Positions 16,031 through 58,977 of a stretch of 64,000 bases of DNA are shown in pieces (position 1 is the stretch's first letter; the number at the start of each line of letters is the position of its first letter). The DNA comes from Roseovarius sp. (lineage in GTDB: Bacteria > Pseudomonadota > Alphaproteobacteria > Rhodobacterales > Rhodobacteraceae). The stretch spans positions 186,001 through 250,000 of the forward strand of contig JAOSKR010000002.1 of the NCBI GenBank assembly GCA_027493545.1, read 5' to 3'. Under the pieces are notes generated by a model. That model was given only the letters and a program-made list of their open reading frames with translations. It had not been told where the DNA came from and ran no database searches. The position numbers and the translations under genes were made by a program.

Positions 16031-16375
16031 TCCCATCACAGAAATTCCCTGTTCGGCGTCAGGAATTCCCTGTTCCGCAGGGTAGGGAATTTGCCCGCAA
16101 GCCTCTGTTATGCCTCGTGGATTTCGGGTAAGCACCACAGGATTCGGGCTCAGATCGGTGAAATTCCCTGTAAATTGTCTGTTATCAGGGAATTTCACCG
16201 AAAACCTCACCGGCCAAACAGGGCACCTGAGACCGGGCCCGAATTTGGGCCAGGGTCGCTGCTCACGGTGAGTCTCGGATCCCCATGCGCGGCCCCAAGC
16301 GCCCGGAATGTCGGGAAATTCGGGGCGGTTTCTGTACAGGGAAACGAGACCGGGGTCGGTGGTGGAGGAGGTGGG
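15669..16375 (+). repeat. Long direct repeat R1 (recombinase tail, TTCCCTG cluster and tRNA-Ser-like end)
   Basis: About 700 bases closely match 55892-56645 in the same orientation, by eye around 85-90 percent identical apart from small indels. The block covers the recombinase tail, a region with many TTCCCTG/CAGGGAA motifs (16003-16200) and the string GAGACCGGGGTCG near its end. Shared order in both copies shows one ancestral unit duplicated. Confidence 0.85.
16346..16375 (+). repeat. Attachment-site-like repeat of the tRNA-Ser 3' end (left)
   Basis: 28 of 30 bases match 58948-58977, which spans the last 16 bases of tRNA-Ser(UGA) including CCA and the 14 bases beyond it. The orientation is direct. 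This is what an attL/attR pair looks like after integration at a tRNA 3' end. Confidence 0.7.
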
Positions 16376-16479
16376 CACGGCGTCGAACCTTCTCCGCCAT
16401 TTAAGTTATTGATTTACAATGGCTCTGCAAGAACCTCTTGTATTCGCGAAGTAGAACGAACCGCACCCACCAGAATTGA
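16376..16479. other. Short spacer between attachment-like repeat and IS6 remnant
   Basis: Unlike the tRNA-side repeat, this continues into unrelated sequence. No gene or repeat is seen apart from an AT-rich patch around 16400-16425. Confidence 0.4.
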
Positions 16480-16678
16480 ACGGCTTCATGGCTGACGTCG
16501 ATGCCGCGCTCCCGAGACAGGTCATCGACGTTGCGCAATGGGAGCGGAAATCTCACATACATCATCACTGCCAGGCGAATGAGCTCGGGGCTGGTTTGGA
16601 AATGGCGAAAAGGGGTTGGGCTTGCTCATCCTGGCAGGGCGGTCCCTATTGCAGCTCAAGCCGCATCGTCTTGACACC
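16480..16678 (-). pseudogene. IS6-family transposase, N-terminal remnant
   Basis: Read on the minus strand it gives degraded MSKPNPF-type sequence, and the nucleotide sequence TTGCTCATCCTGGCAGG...CGCATCG-CTTGACACC matches the 5' end of the nearly whole IS6 element at 57400-57457. Only the first quarter of the transposase gene remains, with several frame breaks. Its outer end (about 16678) abuts the hyuB stop. Confidence 0.7.
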
Positions 16679-16690
16679 TGCCCTCGAAGA

Positions 16691-18296
16691 TCACTCCGGT
16701 GCGCCCCAGCCCCCGCCACCCGCAGTGATCATTTCAAGGCTCTCGCCGCTGGCAAGCCGGTGCGGCCCGCTCTTGGCGCCCAGGTCGTGTCGGGATCCAT
16801 CCGCGCGGATGATGGCAAAGCTTGCGCATCCTCCCGGCATCCCCCAGCGATGCCATGGGCCGGTGATACCGTGCGTTCGCCGAGGATCGACGCCTCGATC
16901 CCGTCGATGAGCGCCGTCACCGTCTTGCGTACGCCGAGGCCCCCCGATCTCTTCCCTGCGCCGCCGCTGCCGCACATCAGTTCATAGGCGCGGAACCGGA
17001 CCGGAATGAAAGCTTCCGTCGCCTCGACCGGCAGATTCATCGTATTGCCCATATGCACTCGCAATCCGTTGGCGCCGTCCGTGTCGCGGGTCGCGCCCAT
17101 GCCGCCGCCAATGGTTTCGTAATGCACGAACTGGGTGTTGCGAACCGGATCGAAGCCGCCCAGAGTATAGACGCAGGCCGACCCGTATCCCCCGCCCGCC
17201 GCGTGGTCGGGATAGACCTGCCCGAGCGCCGAAATCAGGATATCGACAAGACGGTTCGCGGTTTCCGTGTTGGCTCCGACAACCGGTGCAGGATAGGTCG
17301 CATTGAGGACGCTGCCCTCCGGGACGATGATTTCGACGTTTTCATAAATCCCCGAATTCGGTGCGATATCCCCCCGGCAAAGGCGAGGACCGTGTAATAG
17401 ACCGCCGATGACGTGACGGCTATTGGGGCGTTCACCGGCCCGCGCACGCAAGGGTCAGACCCGGTGAAATCGAACCGCAGATGTGCGCCAGTCTTGGTGA
17501 TCGTCACCCGGACCAGCGGCGCGGCGTTGGGGTCGACACCATCGCCGTCGAGCCGTTCTTCATGCATCATCACCGCATCGGGCAATATGCCGATTCGGGC
17601 CTCGGCAAGTCTGCGGCTATAGGCACGGGAATCAACCATGACCGACAGGATGGTTGCGGGCGCATATTTCGCGGCCAAGTCCTGCAACCGACTTTCCGCG
17701 CGATGGTGCCCTGCCAGGGCTGCGCGGAAATCGCCCTCACGATCCTTCGGCACCCGCACATTGGCCAAGATGAGCGCTAACGCATCCTCGCAGATCGCGC
17801 CCTGTTTGATGATCCTGAGGGGCGGTATACGCAGACCTTCCTTGAGGATTTCGTCGCTGACGCTTGACGATCCGCGCGCGCTCCCGCCGACATCGGGCCA
17901 ATGAACCCGGCTCAACGCAAAACCAAGCAGCGTCTGGCCTGCGAAGACAGGGGTCAGCAACGACATGTCCGGCAGATGGGTGCCGCCCGAATAGGGATCG
18001 TTGGTGATGACCCCGTCGCCGGGGCGCCAACCTGCCACTGGGAACTTGTCGAATATTGCTCGGGCAGTGAAGGTCGCTGCACCCAGATGGACCGGAATGT
18101 CGTTTCCCTGGGCAATGACCCGACCTTCGGTATCGAGCAGCGCGCAGGACAGGTCAGCCGACAGGCTGAGCAACGGGGAAAAAGATGTCCGCATGATGAC
18201 GCTCTTCATCTCGGCGCAGATGAAATACAGCGCGCTCCGGACAACTTCGAAGGTGACCGGATCGTGTTCAAGGATCGATTCCGCCTTGCCTGCCAT
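16691..18296 (-). CDS. hyuB: Hydantoinase B / 5-oxoprolinase beta-type subunit
   Basis: About 534 residues after repair. N-terminal DPVTFEVVRSALYFICAEM, then GDGVITNDPYSGGTHLPD, RVHWPDVGG and the C-terminal GGGGWGAPE are characteristic of the HyuB family, which pairs with HyuA for ATP-dependent opening of hydantoins, oxoproline or related cyclic amides. Frame breaks are a G run at 17372-17377 (one more G restores AGGDIAPNSGIYEN) and one near 16850 (one more G restores GIAGGMPGGCASFAI). The gene starts three bases after hyuA ends. Substrate is not predictable from sequence. The cytosolic complex would act on material imported by the neighbouring TRAP system. Confidence 0.88.
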
Positions 18297-18299
18297 CGC

Positions 18300-20355
18300 C
18301 TACACCTCCACCCGCACCGAGCCGTCCTTGCGAAACTCGGCCGATTGGCCGCGCTCCACCCAGATGGTTGAACCGGCATGTTCGATCAACGCCGGACCGT
18401 CCACACGCCCGGCGACCGGGCCGGACCGGTAGACAGCGATTGGGAACTCCGTACCGTCGCGCGCCAGAAACGGTTGGCTGCGCTGCGCCTTCGGGGCGTT
18501 GAACCGGCCATTGCCGGGACGAAAAACATTGGCGCCCGTGCGTTCCGGGGTCATGGTCGCGGTCAGGTGCAGCTTGACGATCTGCACGGCACTGGCCGGC
18601 AGGTCGAACCCGAATTCACGATGATAGGCAGCGCGGAACGCGGCCTCGATCGCCTTTCGGTCGGGCATTGGGTCTCCGACATGACCCATGGGTATCCGCA
18701 ATTCGAAAAGCTGCCCGGTGAACCGAATGTCCAGAAATCGTTCAAATGAGCGGTTGTCGCTTTTCAGGGTCTCACGGTCGAACAGTTCCTGCGCGCGATG
18801 CTTCAGGCTTTCGAAACCGTCGGACAGTTCGCTGTCATCCGACTGCGAAACCTCTCTGAGGGCGGCGTGGGACAGATCGTGCTGGACCTCGCCCATCGTC
18901 GCGCCAAGCGCCGAGAACATCCCCGGCATGGGAGGGACGAGAATGGATTTCACGCCCGTTTCCACCGCGACGTGCGCGGCATGCAAGGGCCCCGCGCCAC
19001 CCGAGGCCAGCACCGCAAAGTCCCGCGGGTCGAGCCCGCGCTTCACGGTCGACATGCGCACCATTTCGGCCATCCGGGCAGTGGCGAGATCGAGAATCGC
19101 ATAGGCGGCGCGCGCCACCGTCCAGCCCAGCGGGCGGGCGATGTGCTCCTCTATTGCCCGCAGTGCAAGTGCGCGCTCGAACGTGAGACCACTGCCCTCG
19201 AACGTCTCGGATGCAACACTGCCGATGACCGCATGGGCATCGGTGACGGTGGGAAGGACGCCACCACGCCCGTAGCAGGCGGGGCCCGGTTCCGCACCGG
19301 CGCTCTGCGGCCCTACCTTGAGAACCCCGCCGTCATCAATCATGGCGATTGATCCGCCGCCCGCACCGATTTCCACGACATCCAGCACTGTGCTGCGGAT
19401 CAGGTAACCGCCCTCGTCGCGCCCGTCGATGAACCGGTCGGCAAGGAAATCCTGACCCACGCCCGGCCGGGCATCCTGCACGACGCTGGCCTTGGCGGTC
19501 GTTCCGCCCATATCGAAGGAAATCAGGTCGTGTTCACCGGATTTGGAGGCATAGGCCGCTGCCGCGATGATGCCAGCCGCAGGCCCACTTTCGATTAGAT
19601 GGGCCGGAAAGCGCGACGCGTTTTCCGGTGACGTCAAACCGCCGTTGGATTTGACTATCGTTATGGCCCGGACACCCAGAGCCTGCGTTTCCAGTTTAAG
19701 CCGCTGCAGATACCGCGACACCGCAGGTCCGATATAGGCATTGACCACGGTCGTTGATGTGCGTTCGTATTCGCCCATTTGCGGGCAGACTTCGTGCGAA
19801 CAGGTGATGAAGGCATCCGGCAGAACCGCGGAGATTGCATCGCGCAATGCAACCTCATGGGCGGGGTTCGCATAGGCATGCAGGCAGGAAAGTGCCACTG
19901 CCTCGGGCCGGGCAGCGACAAGCTGCTCCATCAGCGCGCCGATGTTCGACAATGGTTCGATCACCTTGCCGCTATGGTCCAACCGTTCCTGTGCCCCGAA
20001 GCGCAGATCGTACGGGACCAATGGTTTGCTTACCCGAACATCCCAACGATAGAGTTCGGGGGCGGTCCTGACGGCGCAATTCCAGCACGTCGGTAAACCC
20101 CGCCGTCGTCACCAGCGCAGTGCGTGCGCCGCGGCGCTCGATCAGCGTATTCGTGCCAATGGTGGTGCCATGACTGACTTGGGACTTAGAGAGGTCATGA
20201 TCCGCGGAAATGCGTCGCAGCGCCGCCAGAACCGCCCGACCCGGATCGTCTGGGGTTGAGGGCAGCTTGAAGGCGTCGATCACCGCCCCCTTGTGGCTGT
20301 CCACAATGATAGCATCGGTGAATGTCCCGCCGACATCGATTCCGATCTCGATCAT
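18300..20355 (-). CDS. hyuA: Hydantoinase A / 5-oxoprolinase alpha-type subunit
   Basis: About 684 residues, usual family length. It starts MIEIGIDVGGTFTD (the phosphate-binding signature), followed by SHGTTIGTNTLIERRG, DMGGTTAKAS and GAGGGSIA. A frame break sits in the C run near 20060: with one C fewer the chain reads RQDRPELYRWDVRVSKPLVPYDLRF, a classic HyuA stretch. It partners with HyuB directly downstream. ATP-driven cyclic amide opening is known for the family. Specific substrate (hydantoin, oxoproline, other lactam or imide) is not determined, but the enamidase-like and racemase-family neighbours favour a cyclic imide or lactam. Confidence 0.9.
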
Positions 20356-20373
20356 AATCGCCCCGCCCTGCCG

Positions 20374-21552
20374 TCAGGCATCGCTGCCGGTTTCGATGTC
20401 GCGCAGGGCACCGAGAAATCGCTGCATGTGCCGTTTCAGGTTGAGGTCCACACGCAGATAACGCGGGCCAAGCCCTTCGATGTCGATGCCGTCCTTCACG
20501 ATCACGCCCCGTTCGAGCAGACCGTTGAACACCTTCGTCGAGTCGAGATCCGGGTTGACGATTTCCGTGAGAAAGAAATTCGACCGGCACCCCGGCACCA
20601 TCCGGAATGAATTCATCCCCTGCATTTCGGCCTCGACCATCTTGCGGGACTGCACCACGGTCGCAACCGCACGGGCGACATGGTCGTCGTCGAACACCGC
20701 TGCCGCGCCACCGGTGATCTGCATATGCCCCGGGTTCCACGTCGGCTTTATGTTGCGCAGTGGCCGGATCAACTCCGGATTGGCCGAGACGCCGAACCCT
20801 ACGCGCAGCCCGGCTAGGCCGAAAGCCTTCGAAAAGGTGCGCAACACGATGAGATTGTCGTAGTCGTGCAGCAGATGCATCATCCCGTCAGTTTCGGAAT
20901 AATGGATATATGCCTCGTCCAGAACCACCAGAGTACCTGGGTCGGCGGCATCGCAGATGCGGCGGACCTCGGGTTCATCCAGCAGCTTTCCGGTGGGGTT
21001 GTGGGGATTGGTAATAAAGGCGATCCGCGGCTTTTCGGCCAGACGGGCGACATATGCGTCGAGCATCGGGTCGAATTCCTCACCCATCCGAACCAGCATG
21101 GGAACCCGGCCCTCGACGGTGGAAAAAATGCGGTAAATCGGAAAACACGGATCATGCATCAGGATCGCTTCACCGACGCCGCAAAACGCCCGGACAATCA
21201 TCGAGATTACTTCCGTCTCGCCGGCGCCGCAAACGATGCAGTCTGCGTCGAATCCATAACGCCGGGCAATGGCGTCGCGCAGCGGTTTCGCGGTCCAGTC
21301 GGGGTAGATGTCGAATTTCGGATCTGCGGCGGCGATCGCGGCAACGGCCATCGGCGATGGCCCGTGCGGGTTCTCCGCTGACCCAAGCTTTGCTATCTCA
21401 TCCAGTGGAATACCGTATTTTTCCGCTACATGTTCGCGGGGAAGGCCGGGAACGTAAACCGGACCTTCGGTCAATGCGGTGGAACTCGTTTTTACCATGC
21501 CGGTTTCTCCCAAGAGCGCAACGACACCAGTTAGCCCAGTACGATTATTCAT
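20374..21552 (-). CDS. Histidinol-phosphate aminotransferase-like PLP enzyme
   Basis: 392 residues, fold type I aminotransferase of the HisC-like class. NPHNPTGKL, DEAYIHYSE and TFSKAFGLAGLRVGF (with the PLP lysine) are in place, and YLRVDL sits near the end. A role in histidine synthesis is unlikely in this catabolic context; it more likely transaminates an amino acid released by the hydantoinase. It lies 18 bases before hyuA. The 21553-21648 gap is AT-rich for this region (TATTATACT on the minus strand), a possible separate promoter. Confidence 0.82.
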   Translation of the reverse strand: MNNRTGLTGVVALLGETGMVKTSSTALTEGPVYVPGLPREHVAEKYGIPLDEIAKLGSAENPHGPSPMAVAAIAAADPKFDIYPDWTAKPLRDAIARRYGFDADCIVCGAGETEVISMIVRAFCGVGEAILMHDPCFPIYRIFSTVEGRVPMLVRMGEEFDPMLDAYVARLAEKPRIAFITNPHNPTGKLLDEPEVRRICDAADPGTLVVLDEAYIHYSETDGMMHLLHDYDNLIVLRTFSKAFGLAGLRVGFGVSANPELIRPLRNIKPTWNPGHMQITGGAAAVFDDDHVARAVATVVQSRKMVEAEMQGMNSFRMVPGCRSNFFLTEIVNPDLDSTKVFNGLLERGVIVKDGIDIEGLGPRYLRVDLNLKRHMQRFLGALRDIETGSDA

Positions 21553-21648
21553 GTCAACTGGATTACAACAGTATAATATGAATCACTGGGGGTGATCGCA
21601 CGAAAGATCCGGCTGGTATGCGCAATGTATCGGTGCGTGGTCCACGAA

Positions 21649-23029
21649 TCAAATGACCGGCGCGGAAAGCGGGCGAGGCTTCTTCAGAAGGCGTGCCAGC
21701 CGGTCCAGACCGGTTTCAAGCGTGCGGATATCCGGTTCTGCACCGAGACAGAGTCGCAACGCATTCGGCGGGATCACATTCGGACAAGAGAACGGAGCCG
21801 CCCCCGCAAGGTGCACGTTCACCGCCGCCGCCTCGGCCACGATCGACTGGGCAGGAGCCAAAGGCGGCAGATGATGCCAGACATGATAGGCGATCGCAGT
21901 GTCAGCGGCACCACCGCCGAGATAACGCCGCGCCAGCTCCTGCCGTGCGATCGCATCACTCTGATAGATTGGCAGGATCTTGTCCATGCGCCCGCTCTTG
22001 ACCAGCAGATCTGCAAACCCTGCGAAATACGCCGGACCCATCCAGTTCGAAGCGACAAGGATCTCGTTCATCGGCCCGGCCAACCGTTCAGGGACCCGCA
22101 TGATCCCGAATCGCACACCCGGCGCCACGCATTTCGAGGCGCCGGTCAGGTAGATGCAATTTTCCGACGCATGGCTGGCGACGGAAGGAACCGAGACCCC
22201 GGCCAGAGGTGCAGCAACCGCATCCTCAATCAGAAAGGCATCGTGTTTCCGCAGGAGTTCGGCGATTACGCGTCGCCGGTCGCTGGACATTGTTGCGCCG
22301 GTCGGGTTCTGGGCGGTCGGCGCCAACACCACGAGCCTGGCGCCGGTATCTACGAGCCCGCGCTCAAGTTCATCAGGGCATACACCTTCACCATCCATCC
22401 CTACCCCGTGCGCGATCAGACCTTGGTGGCGGGCGATACGCAGGATCCCAGTATATGTCTGCGCCTCGCACAGGATCGTGTCGCCTCGCGTCGAAAGGCA
22501 CTGCATCGCCGCGACCAGACCCTGCTGGGTTCCGTTGCATGTCAGAAGAACGCCCTCGGCCGCCAGGCAGAATCTGTCCATGAGCCAAAGTGCAAAGTGG
22601 TGGCCGGGGGTCCCGGGGCACAGCCGGTATCCCGCATATCCCAGCATGTCGGTTGCGGGCGTTGTTTCGACATAGTCGCGCAGCCCCGCGCAGAGATGAT
22701 CCTGGCAAAGTGCATGCGGGATCAGGTTGATGGACATATCCACGCAGGGTGCCGCCGGGGGCGGGCGTCACCGGACTCGCAGAGGCGATGAAAGTTCCGC
22801 TGCCCGGCGTCGCCTCGACGAGGCCGCGGCGCGACGCCTCGGCGAACACTTTCGTTATGGTCGAGATCGTCACGCCGAAATGTTCCGCGATCCGGCGCTG
22901 CGGGGGCAACCGATCGCCGGGCCGCAGCGTTCCATTGCGGATGTCGCGAGCAAGCGTTTCCAGCACGGCGAGATATTTGGGGCCATCACGTTGTGCGATT
23001 TCGGGTTGCCACCGGCTGATCGTATTCAT
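21649..23029 (-). CDS. MocR-type GntR regulator with aminotransferase domain
   Basis: About 459 residues. An N-terminal GntR winged helix (GPKYLAVLETLARDIRNGTL, GDRLPPQRRIAEHFGVTIST) is followed by a PLP-binding aminotransferase-like domain (NPTGATMS, YLTGASKCVAPGVRFG with the lysine). The two halves are in different frames: a C-run indel near 22750 lies between PVTPA and DMSINLIPHAL. An upstream in-frame ATG at 23074 is possible; 23029 starts with the more conserved residues. MocR proteins sense amino compounds through PLP and control neighbouring genes, here probably the aminotransferase and hyu genes. Confidence 0.82.
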
Positions 23030-23138
23030 GGTCTCGCTTCGACTACTGGTACTTTCGCGGTATTCAACGGGCATCGTACCCTACCGCTCGAAGGAACTCC
23101 CGTCCAGCCCGCCCGTTCCCCCTCGCCGGGCGGTTGGT

Positions 23139-23858
23139 TCAACGCGGGCTGTCAGCGACATCGAACGCGGCCCGTGCTGCCTCCCGGGCGTTGCGCACAT
23201 GGCGAATGGCTGCCGCGCGCGCAAGCTCCGGATTCCCCCGGCGGATCGCGTCGCAAATGTCCTTCATCTCCACATAGCTGTGGTACGACCGCCCGGGGCA
23301 CCCCATCGAGCGGGCGCGCAGAAAGCTGATGCGCGCGATCAGCCCCTGCAACACTTCCTCAATGACCGGATTGCCGCAGCCGGCAAGGATCCGCGCGTAG
23401 AACTGTTCGGTCGCGGCAATCCGGCCTGCGGCATCCTCGGACTTTACGGCATCGCTGAACCGCAGCAGTGCGCCTTCGATACCCCCAATGCCCTCTTCGG
23501 TTATGGCCGCGGCGCAGAGCGCACAGGCCTCTCCCTCCAGCAATTCACGGACGTGGTAGATTCCGATGGCGTCCTCCCATGTCAGGACCGGAACATGCGC
23601 GCCCCGATGGGGGGTGACAACACACAAACGCTCCGCCTGCAGGGTCCGGATCGCTTCGCGCAGCAGCGGGCGGCTGACCCCGAACATCTCGGCGAGGTCC
23701 GTCTCGACGATCCGATCGCCCGGGCGCAGCCTGCCGCCGAAGATCAGCCCGCGGATCCTAGAGGCGACCTCGTCCACCAGAAGCTTGGGTTCGATCCGAA
23801 TATCGCCAAGCGCTGCGCGATCAGGTTTCCTTGTCTTTCGCTCCGGTCTTCCAGTCAT
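23139..23858 (-). CDS. GntR-family regulator, FCD subfamily
   Basis: About 239 residues. GntR winged helix (LVDEVASRIRGLIFGGRLRPG, LAEMFGVSRPLLREAIRTL) and an all-helical FCD effector domain with metal-ligand-like Asp/His positions (EQFYARI, HSYVEMKDICDAI, RHVRNAREA). Start at 23858 chosen because GAAGGAA lies just upstream. It is divergent from the DUF1185/enamidase genes; the gap contains an inverted repeat, AGATTGCAATACAATCT, suited to a GntR dimer. It probably represses both directions until a carboxylate or amino acid inducer binds. Confidence 0.87.
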   Translation of the reverse strand: MTGRPERKTRKPDRAALGDIRIEPKLLVDEVASRIRGLIFGGRLRPGDRIVETDLAEMFGVSRPLLREAIRTLQAERLCVVTPHRGAHVPVLTWEDAIGIYHVRELLEGEACALCAAAITEEGIGGIEGALLRFSDAVKSEDAAGRIAATEQFYARILAGCGNPVIEEVLQGLIARISFLRARSMGCPGRSYHSYVEMKDICDAIRRGNPELARAAAIRHVRNAREAARAAFDVADSPR

Positions 23859-23989
23859 TTTTTCCGTTCCTTCGGGCGCAACAGGTGCTGCGAGCGGAAT
23901 GCGGGCAGGGTCGCGGTTCCGCACCCGAGACCAAAGGGCCGCGCCCGGATTCTTTCAAATCTCAGTTTCCGCTTGCATCAACAATTGAC

Positions 23990-24006
23990 AGATTGCAATA
24001 CAATCT
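23990..24006. promoter_or_regulatory. GntR-type operator candidate between divergent genes
   Basis: Perfect inverted repeat AGATTG-CAATA-CAATCT. It directly follows TTGACA (23985-23990), a possible -35 box for the plus-strand operon, so a bound repressor would block RNA polymerase. Confidence 0.5.
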
Positions 24007-24036
24007 GGACAAATGGAGTGGAATGAAGGAGGCGGC

Positions 24037-24620
24037 ATGGAACTGATTGTCCGGCGAAGCATCGTCCAGAAAGACGACACCCACATCGTCGGAGGACGAA
24101 TCGGAACTCCGCCCCTAACAAAGATCTCGGTCATCTCGGTGGTGGAAAATCCCCATGCCGGCCAGAAGGTCGAGGATCTGTCCCCCATGATCTCCGCCAG
24201 CGTGGAACTTGCCCATGGCATGGTCGGCCTGGTGGCAGGGCTTTGTGCCGATCAGGACATCCAGAGCTACGGCAAGGCCGGGCTGGTCGGTCTGGCGGGC
24301 GAACAGGAACATGCCAACGCTCTGCTCACGACCGCCTTTGCCAACCCCTTGCGTGAAATGATTGGAAATCCTGTGGCTTGGATTTCGTCCGTCACCAAGT
24401 GGCGCCGCCGGGCACCGCTATCGACGTGCCCGTCAACAATATCCACGATGTCTATGTGCGATCCCACTACGATACGGTATCGCTTTGTATCCCAGGCGTG
24501 CCGATGTCCGACGAGATTGCGGTGATCTTCTGCATGGTGACGCGGGGGCGCATCGGGGCGCGGTCGGGTGGCCTGACCCATGCCGACGCCATTGCCCGCC
24601 GTGAAGGCGCGGATCGGTGA
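24037..24620 (+). CDS. DUF1185 (amino acid synthesis family) protein
   Basis: About 193 residues. MELIVRRSIVQKDDTHIVGG, TKISVISVVENPHAG and VNNIHDVYVRSHYDT are typical of this small family, which is repeatedly found beside hydantoinase and amidohydrolase genes; its biochemical role is not known to me. Start at 24037 follows AAGGAGG at a good distance. A frame break near 24368 (AAA where AAAA restores MIGKSCGLDFVRHQVAPPG) separates the halves. The stop overlaps the next gene's GTG start, so the two are co-translated. Confidence 0.8.
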
Positions 24621-25804: not shown

Positions 25805-25847
25805 GATCATCCTCCGCGGGCAGGAGTCGCTTAACCCGCTAGCGTAA

Positions 25848-25882
25848 ATTGTAACACCATAAAGAGCGTCTGGTGTTACAAT
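25848..25882. promoter_or_regulatory. 12-bp inverted repeat upstream of the TRAP operon
   Basis: ATTGTAACACCA and TGGTGTTACAAT are perfect inverted copies, 11 bases apart. They lie in the 196-base gap before dctP. No T run follows, so an operator (GntR/FCD or MocR) fits better than a terminator. A further TTGTAAT occurs at about 25913-25919. Confidence 0.6.
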
Positions 25883-26000
25883 CAATTGGAGGCTTGATCT
25901 GAACCGCAAAATTGTAATAGTTTTTCTCGACGGGACAGATGGACGACGGCTTCATCTCGAATCTGGAGGTCCCGCCAAAACACCAAGGGAGGAGACCTAA

Positions 26001-26985: not shown

Positions 26986-27015
26986 TCCGGGTTGGATTGC
27001 AGATCAGAGGTGATC

Positions 27016-27531: not shown

Positions 27532-27558
27532 GCCGGTGAGAATAGGGGATCCAAGCGC

Positions 27559-36966: not shown

Positions 36967-37431
36967 GCTGTCAGACGGATGCGAACCAGTCTCCGTCAGG
37001 ATAGTGACGCTGTCCCTTAAGCCGTACAGAGACCGCGCCACTCGGCGAGAGCGGCGGCGCGGTTCAGCTTGAAATTTGATCTCGAAGTGAGGCTGCGCTC
37101 CGTGTTCAAGAGGTCGCGGACCGAGGCGTGGACGGCGGCGAATTTCTGCAAACTTCGCATGCGCCTGAAGCGCAGCATCGCCCGCCTCGCCTTCGAAAAG
37201 GCAAGTGCGAATTCCTTGCGCGGTTGTTTTCCCACCGACCGGTCGTCTGCCGGTCGCCGATACCGGGATCGCGCAGCGCGGCGCCAGCCTCATGACTGAC
37301 ATCGATGCCGCGTTCGTGCAGCAGATCCTCGACATTGCGAAGCGAGAGCGGGAATCGGACATACATCATCACCGCCAGGCGGATGATCTCCCGGCTGGTC
37401 TTGAAGTACTTGCACGGGTCGCGTTTCGTCA
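36967..37431 (-). pseudogene. IS6-family element, internally deleted
   Basis: The left end GCTGTCAGACGGATGCG and the transposase tail match the element at 56648. The N-terminal part (FKTSREIIRLAVMMYVRFPLSLRNVEDLLHERGIDVSHE) is also present, but the middle from just after VSHE to GIGDRQTTGRW is missing, including the first catalytic Asp. It is therefore inactive. It joins an IS110-type fragment on its right side. Confidence 0.8.
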
Positions 37432-37479
37432 TGCGGGCAGGGTAGGGCAGGGCGAAGGTCAGCTGGTCTCGAGCCGGGT

Positions 37480-37573
37480 TGCTCTGAGACTGCCCGGACC
37501 CGTCCGCCGCAACCCCGTGCAACTGGAACACGTTCTTTGCCAGTTCGACCCCGGTGATGCTAACCTCTTGCAT
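37480..37573 (-). pseudogene. IS110-family transposase, N-terminal fragment
   Basis: About 30 codons read MQEVSITGVELAKNVFQLHG, the conserved start of IS110-family DEDD transposases (here Glu replaces the usual first Asp). Sequence after VAADGS is unrelated and runs into the IS6 remnant, so one element cut the other. About 100 bases upstream also look like an IS110 5' non-coding end. Confidence 0.6.
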
Positions 37574-37709
37574 GGATGCCCTCTCTTTCACTTGTGCTTT
37601 CAACGCCACAAGTGTGGCACATTGCGATGCCGTTTGGGGGAGAGAGCGGCATCCATCCCATCCCCAGTTCATGAGTCATCGAAACGTTGCTCCGAAAGCT
37701 CTTCTGCGC

Positions 37710-46810: not shown

Positions 46811-46816
46811 CGGGCG

Positions 46817-49216: not shown

Positions 49217-49283
49217 TCGCAGGAATGGCCGGCGGCGCGTGCCACGACCGCGCCGCCGGCCTGCAAACGGGGCTTGACCGGGC

Positions 49284-50225: not shown

Positions 50226-50279
50226 ACCGGCCGCAAGCAACCCGGCCGCAACGAACAAGGCCAAAAGGAACAACCATTC

Positions 50280-51166
50280 ATGGGATTGCAAGTGCAGGAA
50301 TTGTCGTTCTCGGCCCGCCTCGGCCAACGCATGCGATCGTTGACCGAGTCGTTCCGCCGAAACCCGACGATGCTGTTCGGCATGGCGGTGTTGCTGCTGA
50401 TGGCGGCGCTCGCCTTTGTCGCGCCCCCTGGCTGGGTCTGCCTGACCCGATGCAGCAATCGCCGCGCGACCGGCTGCAGGCGCCCTCGGCCGCGGCGCTC
50501 TTCGGAACCGACATGTACGGGCGCGACCTCTTCAGCCGGGTCTTGCATGGCGGGCAGGTGTCGCTGGTGGTGGGGTTGTCGGTGGCGGCGCTCTCCACGG
50601 TGTTCGGCCTCACCATCGGGCTGGTGTCGGGCTTCATGCGCCGAATCGATGCGGTGATCATGCGGCTGATGGATGCGCTGATGTCGATACCCTCGATCCT
50701 GCTGGCGATCGCGCTGGTGGCGCTCTGGGGCAGCAGCGTGCCCAATGTCATCCTGGCGCTGACCATCCCGGAAATCCCGCGCGTGGTGCGGCTGGTGCGC
50801 TCGGTCGTACTGATGCTGCGCGATCAGCTCTATGTGCAGGCGGCCATCGCCTGCGGCACATCGACTCCGCGCATCCTGGTCCGGCACATCCTGCCCAATA
50901 CGATACCGCCGCTGATCGTGCAGGCCACCTATATCTGCGCGCAGGCGGTGATCTTCGAGGCGTATCTCAGCTTCGTTGGCGCCGGCACCCCGCCCGAGAT
51001 ACCGAGCTGGGGCAACATCATGGCCGAGGGGCGGATGTTCTTCTTCCAGTCGGTGGGTATCATCCTCTATCCCGGTGCGTTCCTGGCGCTGACGGTGTTC
51101 GCGATCAACACCTTCGGCGACGGGCTGCGCGATTCCCTCGATCCGCGCATGCAGCGGAGGGTCTGA
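50280..51166 (+). CDS. dppC: Peptide ABC transporter permease (DppC type)
   Basis: About 295 residues. FGTDMYGRDLFSRVLHGGQVSL and GLRDSLDPRM are DppC hallmarks. One extra C near 50425 separates the first 49 residues; removing it gives FVAPWLGLPDPMQQSPRDRL. Forms the membrane channel with DppB. Confidence 0.9.
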
Positions 51167-51170
51167 CGCC

Positions 51171-52222
<1,052 letters not shown>

Positions 52223-52226
<4 letters not shown>

Positions 52227-53198
52227 TCATGACATCCGAGCCCCCTTCTCGAGGTCGTCGACCTGACCAAGCATTTCCCGATCCGTGGCGGGCTGCGCAA
52301 TCGCGAGCAGGCGCGCGTCTATGCCGTCGACGGGGTGTCGTTTTCGGTCGGTACTGGCGAAACTCTCGGCATCGTCGGGGAGTCAGGCTGCGGCAAGTCG
52401 ACCACCGGCAAGGTGATCCTGCGCCTCGAGGAACCCACCAGCGGGCGCGTCCTGCTCAAGGGCAAGGACATAACGGGGATTTCCCGGCGCGAGATGCACC
52501 CGTACCGCCGGCAGATGCAGGTGATCTTCCAGGATCCCTATGCTTCGCTCAACCAGCGCATGCGCGCCGGCGACATCGTCGGCGAACCGCTGGGCAACTA
52601 TGCCGGCCTTACCGCCGCCGAGCGGCGCGCGAAGGTGGCGCAGCTCTTCGAAAAGGTCGGGCTGCGACAGGACGCGATGCACCGCTTTCCCTACGAGTTC
52701 TCGGGCGGCCAGCGCCAGCGGCTGGGAATTGCGCGGGCGCTGGCGCTCAACCCCGAGATCATCATCGCCGACGAACCCGTCTCAGCCCTCGACGTCTCGG
52801 TGCAGGCGCAGGTGATCAACCTGATGATGGATCTGCAGCAGGAACTGGGGCTTTCCTATCTCTTCATCGCCCACGACCTGGCGGTGGTACAGCATATCAG
52901 CCACCGCATCGGGGTGATGTACCTGGGCAAGCTGGTCGAGATCACCGACAAGCGCAGCCTCTTCCGCGCGCCCCAGCACCCCTATACCGAGGCGCTGCTG
53001 GCCTCGGTGCCGGTCCCCGACCCGCGCCGGCGCAAGACCCGCACCGTGCTCAAGGGCGACGTGCCCAGCCCGATGAAGCCGCCGCGGGGCTGCAATTTCA
53101 ACACCCGCTGCCCGATCGCGGTCGAACGCTGTTTCAGGGAGGAGCCGCCCCTGCGCGAGGTCGCGCCGGGACACATGGCCGCCTGCCACCTGCGCTGA
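52223..53198 (+). CDS. dppF: Peptide ABC transporter ATP-binding protein (DppF type)
   Basis: About 325 residues. Walker [13 protein letters not shown]-loop [12 protein letters not shown], signature [15 protein letters not shown], Walker [14 protein letters not shown]-terminal Cys motif [16 protein letters not shown]. One extra C near 52244 breaks the first ten codons ([13 protein letters not shown] when removed). Pairs with DppD. Confidence 0.92.
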
Positions 53199-53229
53199 GC
53201 CCATCCGAACGCCAAGGAAAGCCCACCCC

Positions 53230-54360
53230 ATGACCCAACTGACCGGAACCGAACTGACGCGCAGCCTGATCGCCTTCGACACCATCAGCCCGCCGGGCAA
53301 CGAGGCCGATTGCGCGCGCCATATCGCCGGACTGCTCGAGCCGGCGGGCTTTCGCATCACCTGGCATGACTGGCAGCCCGGGCGCCCCAACCTGATCGCC
53401 ACCCTGCCGGCAACCGAGACCGCGACGCGCGACGCCATCGTCTATTCCGGTCATCTCGACACCGTGCCGCTGGGCCGGGCCGAGTGGGGTTTCGATCCCT
53501 TCGCAGGCCAGATCAGCGACGGCCGGCTTTACGGGCGCGGCAGCTCGGACATGAAGAGCGGCGTCGCGGCCTGCATCATGGCGGGCCTCGCGCTGGCGCG
53601 CGAGCCGGTGCGCCAGGCCGAGGTTCGCCTGATCTTCAGCGCCGCGGAGGAGACCGGCTGCGAGGGAGCGCTCGGGCTGGCCGGGCGGCCCGACCTGCTC
53701 GGCAGTTGCGCCGCGCTCATCGTCGCCGAGCCTACCGACAACCGGCCCTTCGTGGGCCACAAGGGCGCGCTCTGGCTGTCGCTCGTGCATCGCGGCGTGA
53801 CCGCGCACGGCTCGATGCCCGAAAAGGGCCGCAATGCCATCCTCGCCGCCTGCGCCTCGATCGAGACGCTGCGCGGCTTCGATTTCGGGGTGACGGCGCA
53901 TCCGGTGATGGGCGGGCCCTCGCTCAACGTGGGCACCATGTCGGCGGGGATGAACGTCAACTCGGTCCCCGATCTGGCGCGCGTCGGCGTCGACATCCGT
54001 TCGACCGTGGGCCAGAGCAATGCCGGCATCCGCGATGCCCTGGCCGCGGCGCTGGACGACGGCGTCGAGATCGCGACGCTTACCGACATGGATCATGTCT
54101 ATACCGATCCCGACGACCCTTGGATGAAGCGGGTCTTCGCCACCGTGGCCGAGGTGACCGGCACCGCGCCCGAGATCGAGACCGCCACCTATTTCACCGA
54201 CGCCTCGGTCCTGAAACCGGCGATGGGCGATCCTGCGACCCTGATCATGGGGCCCGGCGCGATGGCGATGGCGCACCAGACCGACGAGTATTGCGAAACC
54301 GCGCTCATGGACCCCTGCATCGAGGTTTTCACCCGTCTCGGCCGGGCGCATATCCTGTGA
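53230..54360 (+). CDS. M20-family peptidase (ArgE/DapE-like)
   Basis: 376 residues, intact. SGHLDTVPLG, RGSSDMKSGVA, AAEETGCEG and EPTDNRP carry the zinc ligands and the general-base Glu; the late His is in MAMAHQTDEY. It hydrolyses amide bonds of N-acyl amino acids or dipeptides. It sits 32 bases after the Dpp genes, so it probably acts on the imported compound. Confidence 0.87.
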   Translation: MTQLTGTELTRSLIAFDTISPPGNEADCARHIAGLLEPAGFRITWHDWQPGRPNLIATLPATETATRDAIVYSGHLDTVPLGRAEWGFDPFAGQISDGRLYGRGSSDMKSGVAACIMAGLALAREPVRQAEVRLIFSAAEETGCEGALGLAGRPDLLGSCAALIVAEPTDNRPFVGHKGALWLSLVHRGVTAHGSMPEKGRNAILAACASIETLRGFDFGVTAHPVMGGPSLNVGTMSAGMNVNSVPDLARVGVDIRSTVGQSNAGIRDALAAALDDGVEIATLTDMDHVYTDPDDPWMKRVFATVAEVTGTAPEIETATYFTDASVLKPAMGDPATLIMGPGAMAMAHQTDEYCETALMDPCIEVFTRLGRAHIL

Positions 54361-54361
54361 C

Positions 54362-54535
54362 ATGGGCGCGCGAAGCCATTGCCTGAACTGCGGCCGCCCA
54401 TTGGACCGCCGCGCCCCGGTCTGCCCCGGCTGCGGGGCGGCGCAGCCGCTGCGGCCGCTGGGCGGGATGATCGCCCTCGTCGTCCTTCTCGCCGGGCTCG
54501 TGGTCGCGACTGCCATCGCGGTTCTCGGCCGCTGA
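54362..54535 (+). CDS. 57-residue zinc-ribbon membrane protein
   Basis: ATG overlaps the end of the M20 gene (TGACATGG). The protein has two CxxC pairs, CLNCGRPLDRRAPVCPGC, as in a zinc ribbon, then a single hydrophobic helix (GGMIALVVLLAGLVVATAIAVL) ending at GR. No frame break and no rival frame. The structure resembles other small zinc-ribbon TM proteins of unknown function. Its place between two peptidase genes hints at a regulatory or assembly role at the membrane. It may also be a chance frame, but the paired Cys motifs and the TM segment argue for a real gene. Confidence 0.6.
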   Translation: MGARSHCLNCGRPLDRRAPVCPGCGAAQPLRPLGGMIALVVLLAGLVVATAIAVLGR

Positions 54536-54571
54536 CCGGCGCCGATCCCTGCCACCGAAGAAAAGAGACCC

Positions 54572-55714
54572 ATGACCCAAGATCCCCTCAGCCTGCCCTT
54601 TGACAGTGACGAGATGCTGGCCGGCCTGCGCCCCTGGATCGAGACCGAGAGCCCCAGTTTCGACGCCGCCGCGGTCAACCGCATGATGAACCTCGTCCAG
54701 CACGAGCTGGCGGTGCTCGGCGCCCGCACCGAACGCATCCCCGGCCGCCAGGGTCTGGGCGACAGCCTGCGCGCGGCGATTCCGCATCCGCGCGCGGGCG
54801 AAGGCGGTATCCTGCTGCTGGGACATCTGGACACCGTCCATCCCCTCGGTACGCTGGCGGCGCTGCCGTTTCGCCGCGATGGCAAGCTCTGTTACGGCCC
54901 CGGCCTTCTGGACATGAAGGGCGGCAACTACGTCTATCTCGACGCCCTGCGCAAGCTGCTTGCAGCCGGGATCGAGACGCCGCTGCCGGTCACCGTGCTC
55001 CTCACCCCCGACGAAGAGATCGGCAGCCCCTCGACGCGCCCGCTGATCGAGGCCGAGGCCCGGCGGCACCGTTTCATCCTGGTGCCCGAACCTGCCTGCC
55101 CGGACGGCAGCGCGGTGATCGGGCGCTATGCCATCGCCCGGTTTTCGCTGCAGACCCGCGGCCGGCCCAGCCATGCCAGCTGGACGCTCGACGAGGGCCG
55201 CTCGGCGATCGCGGAAATGGCGCGCAAGGTGGCCGAGATCGAGGCGATGACCACCGAGGACTGTTCCTTTTCGGTCGGCGTCATCCGCGGCGGGCAGTGG
55301 GTCAACTGCGTCTCGTCGGTCTGTGACGCCGAGGTGTTGAGCATGGCCAAGACACAGGATCTGCTCGACGAGGGCGTGGCCCGGATGTTGGCCCTGGGAC
55401 AGGACGGCGGCGAGGTGGCGCTCGAGGTCCGGCGCGGTGTCACCCGCCCGGTCTGGGCACCCGACCAGCCCGGCACGATGGCCATGCTCGAGGTCGCGCG
55501 CGCCATCGCCGCCGAGATCGGATTCGATCTGCCCGCCTGCTCCGCAGGTGGCGGATCGGACGGGAATTTCACCGGCGCGCTGGGTCTCGCCACGCTCGAC
55601 TCGATCGGACTGAGGGGCAGGGGGCTGCACACGCTCGATGAACACATCGAGGTCGATAGCCTGGCGGAGCGGGCGCGGCTGGCAGCGGGACTCTTCTGCC
55701 GGCTCGGGGCTTGA
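54572..55714 (+). CDS. M20-family peptidase (carboxypeptidase G2 / AcyI-like)
   Basis: 380 residues, intact. GHLDTVHPLG, GPGLLDMKGG, LTPDEEIGSPSTR, VPEPA and the late His in GRGLHTLDEHIE hold the zinc site. GHLDTVHP and TPDEEIGS resemble carboxypeptidase G2-type enzymes, which release glutamate or other amino acids from N-acyl conjugates. Last gene of the peptide module, right before the recombinase remnant. Confidence 0.86.
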   Translation: MTQDPLSLPFDSDEMLAGLRPWIETESPSFDAAAVNRMMNLVQHELAVLGARTERIPGRQGLGDSLRAAIPHPRAGEGGILLLGHLDTVHPLGTLAALPFRRDGKLCYGPGLLDMKGGNYVYLDALRKLLAAGIETPLPVTVLLTPDEEIGSPSTRPLIEAEARRHRFILVPEPACPDGSAVIGRYAIARFSLQTRGRPSHASWTLDEGRSAIAEMARKVAEIEAMTTEDCSFSVGVIRGGQWVNCVSSVCDAEVLSMAKTQDLLDEGVARMLALGQDGGEVALEVRRGVTRPVWAPDQPGTMAMLEVARAIAAEIGFDLPACSAGGGSDGNFTGALGLATLDSIGLRGRGLHTLDEHIEVDSLAERARLAAGLFCRLGA

Positions 55715-55779
55715 TGCCGCAGGAGCGGCTGCAATCGGCCAGTGCCCGCCGACGCGGGACGAAAAACGCCGCGGGCTCA

Positions 55780-56266
55780 TACCCGGGCATCAGTCCCGCC
55801 GCCCTGCTCCTCGGCAACTTCCGCGACGAGACCGGTGACCGGCTCACGCCGACGCATACCCGGCGGCATGGACGGCGGCTGCGGTATTACGTCTCCAACC
55901 GGCTGATCTCGGGCGGTGCCGTTCGCACAGGGTGGCGCTTGCCGGCGCCGCGGCGTCGAGATGAAGATCGTCGCGGGAGAAAGATCGCCGGCGCCCGACA
56001 TGGCAATGGTCCGCGCCCTCGGGAACGCGCATCGCTGGGCCGCCATGCTGACGTCTGGTTTCGCTCTCAAGGACATCGCCGACCGCGAGGAATTCTCCGA
56101 AAGCCATGTCGGGCGCATCATCCCGCTCGCGACGCTCTCGCCGAGGATTCAGGACGCGATCGTCTCCGGCGCGCAGCCGTTTGAGCTCAACCTCGAAACC
56201 CTCGTTCGCGCCCGGCTGCCGCTCGATTGGTCCGACCAGGAGCTGCGCTTCGGACACGCCGCCTGA
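55780..56266 (+). pseudogene. Serine recombinase, C-terminal remnant (repeat R2)
   Basis: LLLGNFRDETGDRLTPTHTRRH and RRLRYYVSNRLISGG are the recombinase zinc-ribbon region (without its Cys pairs), then in a second frame RNAHRWAAMLTSGFALKDI-type sequence, SESHVGRIIPLATLSPRIQ and LETLVRARLPLDWSDQE give the helix-turn-helix tail and a stop at 56266. The catalytic domain is missing. A frame break lies at about 55950. Closely related to the remnant at 15.7-16.0 kb but keeping a longer linker. Confidence 0.6.
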
Positions 56267-56645
56267 CGCCTTCCCTGTTCCTTGCGGCCGGTTCCCTGAT
56301 CTTCCCTGAATATTCCCTGTTCGGCGTCAGAAATTCCCTGTTCCGAAACGCAGGGAATTTGCCCGCAAGTCTCTGTTATGCCTCGGAGATTCCAGGTCAT
56401 CGCCGCAGGATTCGGGCTCAAATCGGTGAAATTCCCTGTAAATTGCATGTTATCAGGGAAATCCCCGAAAACCTCACCCGAAAACCTCACCGGCCAAACA
56501 GGGTACCTGAGACCGGGCCCCAATTTGGGCCGGGGGCGCGCTTCACGGTGAGTCTCGGATCCACATGCACGGCCCCAAGTGCCCGGAATGTCGGGAGAAT
56601 TCGAGGCCGTTTCGGTACAGGGAAATGAGACAGGGGTCGGTGGCG
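55892..56645 (+). repeat. Long direct repeat R2
   Basis: Counterpart of R1 (15669-16375), same orientation. It carries the TTCCCTG cluster at 56272-56470 and ends GAGACAGGGGTCGGTGGCGG, part of the tRNA-Ser-adjacent string, where the IS6 element takes over. About 40 kb lie between R1 and R2. Confidence 0.85.
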
Positions 56646-56647
56646 GC
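56267..56647. other. Non-coding TTCCCTG cluster
   Basis: At least eight copies of TTCCCTG or CAGGGAA occur in about 200 bases, some as inverted pairs around CAGGGAATTT. No gene is seen. The same cluster occurs at 16003-16200. Confidence 0.6.
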
Positions 56648-57457
56648 GCTGTCAGACGGATGCGAACCAGTCTCCGTCAGGACAGTGACGCTGTCCCTTA
56701 TGCCGCGCAGAGACCGCGCCACTCGGCGAGAGCGGTGGCGCGGTTCTGTTTGAAAATGTGCCAGCTGGAGAGACTGCGTTCCTGGTTGAAATGGTTGCAT
56801 ACGGAGGAGTAGACGGCGGCGAATTTCTGCAGGTTTCGCATCCGCCGGAAGCGGGACATGGCGCGTTCTCGTCGTCGGAAGGGCAGGTGGGAATTCTCGG
56901 CACGATTGTTCATCCAGCGCCCGGTTTGCTGCCGATCGGCGTTTCCGATCTCCTTCATGGCGGCGCCGTAGGAGCGCAGCTTGTCGGTGACGATCTGTTC
57001 CGGCCGACCGTAGCGTTTCATCAATTTCCTGAGGAATTTCAACGCCGCCTTGCGATCGCGGCGCTTGGTGACCAAGGTCTCGAGTACCTCGCCCTCGTGG
57101 TCACGGCTCGCCACATGTAATGCGTCTCGCCGTTGATCTTCACGAAGACCTCGTCGAGGTGCCATTGCCAGTTCGAGTGGGCGCGCATCCGCTGGACCCC
57201 GGTCTTGCGGATCTCGGAGGCGAACAGGGGACCGAACCGCATCCACCAAAACCGGACGGATTCATGGCTGACGTCGATGCCGCGCTCGTGCAGAAGGTCC
57301 TCGACGTTGCGCAACGAGAGCGGGAACCGGACATACATCATGACCGCCAGGCGGATGATCTCGGGGTTGGTCCGGAAATAGCGAAAAGGGTTGGGCTTGC
57401 TCATTCCGGCAGGCTACGGGGTCCCTGTTGCAGCGCAAGCCGCATCGCCTTGACACC
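56648..57457 (-). mobile_element. IS6-family element, nearly whole
   Basis: About 810 bp, the usual size. Imperfect terminal inverted repeats: GCTGTCAGACGGATGCG at the left and, reading inward from the right end, GGTGTCAAGGCGATGCG (12 of 17 match). It carries one transposase gene. The left end cuts the R2 repeat within the tRNA-adjacent string. Confidence 0.78.
56698..57404 (-). CDS. IS6-family transposase
   Basis: About 235 residues. MSKPNPFRYFRTNPEIIRLAVMMYVRFPLSLRNVEDLLHERG is the N-terminal region; DDE residues lie in WHLDEVFVKI, IVTDKL and NRAENSHLPFRRRE. One G is missing near 57101 (minus strand GTGACC; GTGGACC restores WRAVDHEGEVLETLV), so as printed the gene is split. Transposes by replicative cointegrate formation in this family, leaving directly repeated IS copies. 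Confidence 0.85.
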
Positions 57458-57620
57458 TCCGTTAACCTCGATGTTCATCTTCGCCTCCGCAGTTCAGTGT
57501 CAATTACGAGCCGTATTGACGCTGCGACCTGCGGTTTCCCCGATGCGCGGGGTGCGATGACCTCAAGATACAATCGAATCCGGGTTTGTAAAGACACCTA
57601 CGAAAATTCCGCCAGAACCA
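57458..57620. other. Spacer between the IS6 and IS5 elements
   Basis: About 160 bases with no gene or repeat that I can support. Confidence 0.5.
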
Positions 57621-58452
57621 GGGTCAGGACCCATTGATTTTGGGGCGAACATCTGAATCACTGTTCTGAAAAAGGAGCGGTGACATGGGCGATCTCTTTT
57701 GGCTGACGGACGAGCAGATGGCGCGTCTCGAACCTTTCTTTCCAAAGCCCCACGGCAAGCCCCGTGTCGATGACAAGCGTGTGCTCAGCGGTATTATCTT
57801 CATTAATCGCAATGGCTTGCGGTGGCGCGATGCCCCTGCGGCGTATGGCCCGCCCAAGACGCTCTACAACCGCTGGAAACGGTGGAGCGACAAGGGCATC
57901 TTCGCCCGGATGCTGCTGGAGCTGGCGGACCAAGGGCAGCAAACCGACACGCTGATGATCGACGCGACCCATTTTAAGACCCATCGCACCGCCTCAAGCC
58001 CGGGCTTGAAAAAGGGGGGCGCGGTCGCCTGATCGGGCGCACGAAGGGCGGGATGACCTCCAAGCTGCATGCCGTCACGGATGCTTTGGGCCGCCCCTTG
58101 CGGATGTTTCTGACGGCAGGCCAGCGCAGCGATTACATCGGCGCTCGGGCCTTGCTGGACGGTTTGCCGCCTGCCAGACACATGCTCGCGGATCGGGGCC
58201 ATGACGCGGATTGGTATCGCGAAGAGCTTGAAAGCAAGGGGATCAAACCGTGCATCCCATCGCGAAAGGGGCGCAAAGTTCCTATCCCGCACGACGAGGC
58301 CCGTTACCGGCAGCGCCACAAAATCGAGAATGCCTTTGCTCGTCTCAAAGACTGGCGACGCGTGGCAACTCGCTACGACAGATGCCCCAAGGTCTTCCTG
58401 TCAGCCTGCGCTCTTGCCGCCATCGTCATGTTCTGGCTATGAGTCCTGACCC
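57621..58452 (+). mobile_element. IS5-family element, IS427 group
   Basis: About 832 bp with terminal inverted repeats GGGTCAGGACCCAT and GGGTCAGGACTCAT (13 of 14). It holds two overlapping-type reading frames that form one transposase, as is normal for the IS427 group. Confidence 0.87.
57685..58442 (+). CDS. IS427-group transposase (two frames)
   Basis: First frame 57685-58032 starts MGDLFWLTDEQMARLEPFFPK and holds the first Asp in MIDATHFKTHRTAS. Second frame 58053-58442 starts MTSKLHAVTDALGRPL and holds LADRGHDAD and the Glu region KIENAFARLKDW. A run of five A and six G near 58005-58015 joins them. A -1 shift there gives KKGGRGRLIGRTKGGMTSK. This group is known to use -1 frameshifting, so the break may be programmed, although the window's many homopolymer errors are an alternative. 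Confidence 0.87.
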
Positions 58453-58961
58453 CAGGCCGCTTCTAAAGAGGATGCTTTTGCCTGTTCCGGCACAGTAACA
58501 GGCCCTGTTTTGCCGCTTGCTGCGCCTGTTTTGCGTCAAAACAGGCCTGTTTTGCCAAGAAACAGGAAACCATCCAGAATTGCCGGCCATATCATTGAAT
58601 TCAAATGAATAAATAATCTGGAGACGACAGGCGCTCGCATGGATCCTCCTGTTTTTTAACCCGATCGGGCGAAAATTCCCTGTTCCTGGTCAAGGAACAG
58701 GGGCCGGACAACTGCAGACTGGCTCCACGGGCTTGGGCTGGTTTTCGAAAAAAGGCCCGGGGCATTGCCTGCAAATCTCTGGCAACCAGGCAGGTCTCAT
58801 GAAAACCGAACCGTGCAAAACGGCCCGCTGAGACTCGGCTCGATGTCGCGAGCGAACTCGGAAAAACGGTGCGTCTCACCCCGCCTATGCAGTTTGCAAG
58901 GCGCCGGAAACACGCGAAAATTCGAACGGAAAACGCACGGTGTCAGAGAGACCGGGGTCGC
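58453..58961. other. Non-coding region with CCTGTTTTG repeats before tRNA-Ser
   Basis: Between 58485 and 58575 the strings CCTGTT, CCTGTTTTG and AAACAGG recur in both directions, including AAACAGGCCTGTTT-like palindromes. Further on TTCCCTGTTCC and GGAACAGGGG (58676-58702) form an inverted pair. This recalls the TTCCCTG clusters of R1 and R2. No gene is supported. The tRNA-distal part of the attachment repeat starts at 58948. Confidence 0.55.
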
Positions 58962-58977
58962 TGGCGGAGGAGGTGGG
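58948..58977 (+). repeat. Attachment-site-like repeat at the tRNA-Ser 3' end (right)
   Basis: 28 of 30 bases identical to 16346-16375. It covers the CCA end and first acceptor/T-stem bases of tRNA-Ser on the minus strand plus 14 bases outside the tRNA. Confidence 0.7.

Follow-up and report, generated by a model that had tools for sequence, protein, structure and literature searches.

Likely scars of several large serine recombinase elements at a tRNA-Ser(UGA) gene of Roseovarius

What leaves two direct copies of a tRNA 3' end some 42 kb apart in a bacterial genome, and do such copies bound one island or mark the remains of several? The question is raised by a 64,000-nucleotide stretch of Roseovarius sp. 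DNA (the window: contig 2, positions 186001-250000, of a 3.33-Mb draft genome in 5 contigs, 91.5% complete), which a preliminary description had read as holding a single island integrated at a tRNA-Ser(UGA) gene. Our answer is that the region is likely a pile-up of several old scars left at that gene by elements encoding a large serine recombinase (LSR), and not one clean island; as far as sequence can tell, the acting enzyme was most likely an LSR. In the window itself, the tRNA end with an adjoining arm is present three times, alongside two LSR remnants from a single lineage and a diverged arm region, the third, next to the tRNA gene; in relatives, LSR genes of the same family stand beside many tRNA genes in a consistent orientation.

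Three tRNA ends and two recombinase modules

The direct repeat is as first described: 16346-16375 and 58948-58977 agree at 28 of 30 positions, and a pattern search allowing up to three mismatches finds two occurrences in the window and 0 in 100 shuffles, far above chance. The right copy does hold the encoded CCA end of the tRNA, whose 3' side faces the island. The make-up of the repeat is a different matter. Only 16 of its 30 bp (58962-58977) are the end of tRNA-Ser, the other 14 (58948-58961) being an arm of the element, and the two mismatches, both formerly assigned to the tRNA, fall at the discriminator base (58965) and just outside the CCA (58961), i.e. one within the tRNA gene and one beyond it. 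The arm (consensus GAGACxGGGGTCGG, directly before the tRNA 3' end) is found again, with variation, in many related elements, including some at other tRNA genes, and a third, shorter copy of arm plus tRNA end lies at 56627-56646. In the sense used by the Islander program, an intact tRNA gene stands at one end and a displaced 3' fragment in the same orientation at the other, the displaced fragment having no chromosome border. The features on which the argument turns, including the attachment (att) sites and one insertion sequence (IS)-like end, are the following.

15650-16030, plus strand: LSR remnant A, reduced to C-terminal pieces that correspond to about residues 322-353 and 459-556 of intact relatives, from tblastn with six intact LSRs
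16002-16345, plus strand: repeat array A and arm region, with TTCCCTG at 16002, 16023, 16045 and 16066, then more and inverted copies
16346-16375, plus strand: displaced att site A, a 14-bp arm (16346-16359) and 16 nt of tRNA-Ser 3' end (16360-16375)
55720-56266, plus strand: LSR remnant B (about residues 272-351 and 453-556), lacking the N-terminus and middle, from tblastn with the same six LSRs
56271-56626, plus strand: repeat array B and arm region, from sequence comparison and motif
56627-56646, plus strand: displaced att site B, arm and the last 6 nt of the tRNA, interrupted by an IS-like end from 56647-56649
58560-58947, plus strand: repeat/arm region C, strongly diverged, without an LSR gene, with one exact TTCCCTG and GAGAC/GTCTC motifs in the usual order
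58948-58977, plus strand: att site C, 14-bp arm and 3' end of the functional tRNA
58962-59051, minus strand: tRNA-Ser(UGA), intact, CCA encoded, 3' end pointing left

Self-comparison of the window aligns 15640-16375 with 55863-56644 at 89% identity (643 of 722 aligned positions), delimiting a 0.72-kb module present as two direct copies, A and B, about 40.2 kb apart. The module runs from the LSR remnant through TTCCCTG repeats and a GAGAC/GTCTC stretch to the arm and a tRNA 3' fragment. The left repeat copy is, in other words, the recombinase-proximal end of another LSR module, and with a third copy between them the two outer repeats do not bound one 42-kb island. Because the left copy ends an LSR module, the DNA left of 16346 is more island or mobile DNA and not chromosome, and because mobile DNA continues leftward, an empty site joining tRNA-Ser to the sequence left of 16346 is unlikely. 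Since the two LSR remnants have nearly the same middle deletion, they would most simply descend from one already damaged copy.

How might such a stack arise? In the mechanism that we propose, the attP site of an incoming element would carry the arm plus the last 14-19 nt of the tRNA, and the LSR, by its predicted catalysis, would recombine inside this 14-19-nt block, rebuilding the tRNA with arm and array beside it and pushing the old 3' end to the far side. Each later insertion would push earlier elements further left, giving a stack with the youngest at the tRNA; as for the cargo between A and B, LSR mobilisation in trans, module duplication, homologous recombination or IS activity may have helped. 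With the LSR genes of the window broken, any movement today would require an enzyme from outside, and the island as it stands can most likely not move on its own.

Other relics are found in the same genome. At about 456.4 kb of contig 2 (L031:16380-17300), an arm and a tRNA-Ser-like 3' fragment form another displaced LSR site, followed by frames that we take to be a broken P4-type tyrosine integrase, and a further relic lies at tRNA-Ser(GGA) on contig 4.

A recombinase family at tRNA genes

Matches to the LSR remnant occur in 61 of 146 genomes, the window's own included. Both full-length relatives scanned (L096 and L110, >500 aa) combine Resolvase (PF00239) and Recombinase (PF07508) domains. 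The family's LSRs are about 500-610 aa long, come mostly from alphaproteobacterial genomes and are associated with 16 tRNA types; a structure model (pLDDT 86) predicts a match to the PhiC31, Bxb1 and TP901-1 integrases, and the C-terminal domain appears to resemble the helix-turn-helix (HTH) domains of ParB, KorB and Noc. Phage and plasmid collections yield LSR matches that are mostly partial or below 60% identity. Twenty regions were fetched from matching genomes, many chosen for a tRNA, and all 20 hold one; 11 hold a close LSR match. Six regions chosen for the LSR alone (L110-L115) all have a tRNA at the usual place: in five, its 3' end points toward the LSR and the array is present, the sites being Ser(GGA), Ser(GCT) or Lys, and in the sixth (L111) the LSR lies at tRNA-Gln without an array.

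The association is measured in a named set of LSR loci not chosen for tRNAs, the best 80 of 586, to which the next counts apply. Among the 71 with at least 600 bp downstream (the other 9 were dropped), 51 have a tRNA within 500 bp downstream, starting at 172-476 bp (median 255), and all 51 tRNAs are convergent with the LSR gene; upstream the count is 0 of 74, and the background is 5 tRNAs in 686,908 bp elsewhere, or 0.0036 per 500 bp. The targets are Ser (19), Gln (15), Met (6), Ala (3), Arg (2) and, with one locus each, Lys, Asp, Trp, Thr, Val and Tyr, making 16 anticodon types overall. At the level of the family, a serine recombinase gene adjoins the 3' end of the target tRNA; in the window itself, remnants A and B are all that is left, and neither lies next to the tRNA. 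Several loci preserve the order seen at module A, i.e. LSR and array, then a tRNA 3' fragment, then other DNA, with fragments of 19 nt in L219, 16 in L250, 14 in L145, 14 in L141 and 16 at window site A. Shorter fragments occur in L142 (8 nt) and at window site B (6 nt), both cut by an IS-like end, which in the Ruegeria locus L142 is the same as at site B, and in L146 (7 nt). The two viral cases, L219 and L250, are consistent in sequence with attP or displaced sites. In another viral contig (L218), an array-type LSR is followed by a same-strand tRNA-Ser(TGA), opposite to the usual orientation.

Does the att region follow the tRNA or the recombinase? A quick tree of 72 of the 80 LSRs (8 were left out for lack of a long open frame) places the 12 repeat-bearing LSRs (L138-L148 and L150) in one clade with SH-aLRT 100, and this clade uses three targets, Ser(UGA), Ser(GGA) and Arg(UCU), which argues that the att region follows the recombinase. 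At tRNA-Ser(UGA), the arm is absent from all five examined loci without an LSR of the family (L105-L109). A control with the 30 best-scoring PF07508 loci in relatives turned up LSRs of a second type in 9 (L300, L301, L303, L304, L308, L310, L311, L312 and L314), whose stop codon lies 43 nt inside a convergent tRNA-Met and whose C-terminal end, VAG(V/A)GFEP(T/A)TFRL, is read antisense from that tRNA; since these control loci also meet a tRNA, LSRs outside this one clade probably target tRNAs too.

Comparison of chromosomal neighbourhoods supports integration at the 3' end of tRNA-Ser(UGA) well, as the preliminary description had proposed: the genes on the 5' side are common to 12 of 12 relatives, and on the 3' side (1.3-16.8 kb per locus) the genes common to at least 3 loci are LSRs, their neighbours and generic transporter matches. 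The best-matching tRNA flank among relatives is that of G077, whose 3' flank, compared with the window's own genome, gives no match beyond tRNA genes. In G077, a serine recombinase of another type (Resolvase plus Zn_ribbon_recom; L105:11557-13221) abuts tRNA-Ser(UGA), and its open frame continues antisense through the tRNA gene.

Of 20 tRNA-Tyr loci compared, those in G009, G032 and G028 have an LSR-side flank in common. One gene lies 0.12 kb past the tRNA in G023 and 0.93 kb past it in G003, both without an LSR; in G032 it is 17.7 kb past the tRNA, with LSR pieces between, in G009 it is 210 kb away in the same orientation, and in G028 it is on another contig. The displacement in G032 relative to G023 and G003 is as predicted by insertion at a tRNA 3' end.

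Cargo, objections and rival explanations

The remaining features of the region lie between and beside the modules.

16376-55714, no strand assigned: cargo, from domain scans of proteins
56647-57461, no strand assigned: IS remnant with a paralogue at 36968-37672
57670-58442, plus strand: pieces of an IS4/5-type transposase (DUF4096), from a domain scan

The cargo holds lactamase/hydantoinase-like subunits, an aminotransferase, amidohydrolases, two TRAP transporters, a formamidase with a urea-type ABC transporter, a peptide ABC transporter, two M20 peptidases and IS remnants, so the four uptake/hydrolysis modules and IS elements first reported are indeed present; several of these genes are split across frames. 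The IS paralogue at 36968-37672 weakly matches an IS6-family transposase model (40.9 bits, against a cut-off of 125). Conjugation or virion genes were not seen among the window proteins scanned, which cover part of the open reading frames (ORFs). Left of module A, 4418-11569 carries an apparent type III restriction system, with helicase and endonuclease parts, split by an IS21-type element, of which three nearly identical copies lie between 2.5 and 15 kb of the window.

Several findings weigh against the pile-up. Region C is recognised by motif order, its identity to A and B being 52-54% in forced alignment, and BLAST detects only the 30 bp; an IS-like end interrupts the B junction; and the nearly identical deletions in A and B are hard to square with two new insertions made independently. 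Family members that are more distant (L100, L103 and L104) sit at tRNA-Ser(UGA) with neither this arm nor this array. Within the family, 20 of the 71 loci have no tRNA within 500 bp, some of them holding tRNA fragments (14 nt in L145, 14 nt in L141 and 20 nt in L167) and several nothing recognisable, and among 43 viral-contig loci with at least 600 bp downstream (of 80), only 4 have a tRNA within 500 bp, one of them in the opposite orientation. A distal att end was not found in five relatives searched over 60-100 kb (G052, G016, G012, G088 and G144), nor was there a clear one at the tRNA-Tyr locus of G032, where the only match is 8 nt. A 15-nt candidate 28.5 kb away in G052 was rejected, because an ORF, presumably for an IS110-type transposase, contains it at its 3' end; G016, G012, G088 and G144 have no copy in direct orientation, the G012 match being another tRNA-Ser on the other strand.

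The left chromosomal boundary, moreover, is not identifiable by synteny among the relatives compared. The left backbone is marked by a metallo-beta-lactamase-fold gene next to tRNA-Asn. Ten same-genus relatives carry both this gene and tRNA-Ser(UGA) on a single contig; in 9 of them (G003, G008, G009, G016, G022, G032, G035, G036 and G041) the two are 0.5-3.1 Mb apart, but the tenth, G046, has the gene 25-26 kb from the tRNA, on its 3' side and with the order inverted, so that rearrangement is likely. The tRNA-Asn gene of G046 lies 27 kb from tRNA-Ser(UGA), again in inverted order. In the window's genome, tRNA-Asn (contig 2, about 182 kb) is directly followed by an open frame (L034:9964-11244), without an NCBIfam match, that we assume to be a tyrosine integrase; the tRNA-Asn site is perhaps a second island facing the tRNA-Ser stack.

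How do other explanations fare against the same evidence? In the most serious, the 0.72-kb module came to flank the cargo as a duplicate, either through homologous recombination of a circle (cargo and one module) with a resident module or through IS activity, the LSR having no role in cargo entry. The 89% identity of A and B, their direct orientation about 40.2 kb apart, their nearly identical LSR deletions and the IS remnants at both modules fit this, but it leaves the third, diverged arm region at the tRNA unexplained and 11% divergence is high for a local duplication; we consider such a history possible, if doubtful. A single 42-kb island inserted by a tyrosine integrase, with attL at 16346 and attR at 58948, would account for the 28/30 repeat with its CCA, and tRNA 3' ends are the classic target of these enzymes (PMC4383910). 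We rejected it on the strength of the third copy between the ends and of LSR remnant A, which with its array precedes the left copy just as in related LSR loci. In addition, 14 of the 30 bp are element DNA and not tRNA, and no tyrosine integrase was found by Pfam and NCBIfam scans of window proteins covering part of the ORFs, making the single island very improbable. A third possibility is that repeats in the draft genome were misassembled. The 5 contigs and 91.5% completeness, the distant left backbone in 9 of 10 relatives and the nearly identical IS21-type copies at 2.5-15 kb speak for an artefact; however, the 11-48% differences among A, B and C are larger than collapsed copies of a single sequence would show, a span of 3.5 kb takes in B, C and the tRNA, and the same two neighbourhoods are close in G046 too, though inverted. 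An artefact therefore strikes us as highly unlikely, and a pile-up of LSR scars remains our preferred explanation.

The repeat array, known systems and outlook

The repeat region beside att, about 370 bp long, occurs in one LSR clade. In 27 att regions chosen by hand for motif counts and spacings, TTCCCTG or its complement occurs 1-9 times per region, compared with 0.03-0.14 in shuffles. Among 68 spacings between consecutive forward copies, 27 measure 21-22 bp, another 18 fall at 10-12 bp and 15 more at 97-99 bp, a pattern of helical phasing. At least two TTCCCTG within 500 bp are found at 15 of the best 80 of 586 LSR loci, including L149 and L175, which fall outside the clade, and L182, which the tree does not contain. 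Is the array a specific partner of the LSR? The spacing pattern is present in 30 of 146 genomes (a reversed control in 4), and of the 30 array loci found by pattern alone, one per genome, only 8 hold a family LSR within 1.5 kb, 8 a convergent tRNA and 7 both, which weakens that idea. Twenty further array regions were fetched (3.6-20 kb), of which 2 hold a family LSR and one, L358, a convergent tRNA-Lys spaced as usual; an Rfam search of six of these loci gave a single weak tRNA match, and the neighbour proteins of 21 array loci gave no matches to a profile of the LSR tail.

Phased arrays without a nearby LSR or tRNA are seen in L347 (about 1500-1780), L348, L351, L346, L333, L344 and others. 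In L347, L348 and L351, the array lies behind an M78-peptidase-like gene (by Pfam for two, by likeness for the third), with an HTH gene in the one scanned. By eye, at least 13 of the remaining array loci have a different right-hand module, GAGACxGGxTxGC...GACTGC...CACxGCCA, which may be a further attachment site or belong to the 3' end of an RNA gene.

Which known systems come closest? The filamentous phiRSM phages of Ralstonia (PMC4471427) likewise pair a serine recombinase with the 3' end of tRNA-Ser and a short shared block, of 13 bp in the phages and 14-19 nt in our elements, but their Int is described as a member of the resolvase/invertase subfamily, whereas the LSRs here are about 500-610 aa long and meet 16 tRNA types. 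Actinomycete integrative and conjugative elements (AICEs) at tRNA-Leu in Mycobacterium also combine a serine recombinase with a tRNA target, an integration called rare (PMC3218068); they involve one tRNA and 8 similar recombinases, in contrast to a diverse family in which one clade has a repeat array. Islander-type islands (PMC4383910) resemble our locus in the intact tRNA on one side, the displaced 3' fragments and the tandem arrays, and the tRNA sites described in PMC10654092 and PMC8092301 are those of tyrosine integrases. An open-access full-text literature search found no report of this LSR family; the TIGER tables may contain such cases. The LSR of Acidithiobacillus phage AcaML1 has 51% identity over 60% of the query, and that of Wolbachia phage WO 32% over 95-96%.

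PhiC31-type att sites need only about 50 bp. The PhiC31, Bxb1 and TP901-1 integrases and the LSRs studied here have in common the predicted fold of the catalytic and recombinase domains and differ in the putatively ParB/KorB/Noc-like C-terminal domain and, in one clade, the repeat region. It is tempting, if rather unlikely, that in this clade of a diverse family specialised on tRNA 3' ends the ParB/KorB-like tail reads the phased array beside attP, giving a large, architecturally controlled att site like that of lambda integrase. Serine integrases are not known to need such a site.

As a relic, the window region is moderately interesting in itself, less so than the recombinase family with its att region. 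Genes for tRNAs are usually seen as the territory of tyrosine integrases, and Islander-like finders are built on that rule (PMC4383910), so islands of the LSR type would be missed or misassigned. The repeat array makes the use of accessory DNA sites by some LSRs testable, and an LSR family that naturally targets many tRNA genes could supply serine integrases whose landing sites are both new and conserved.

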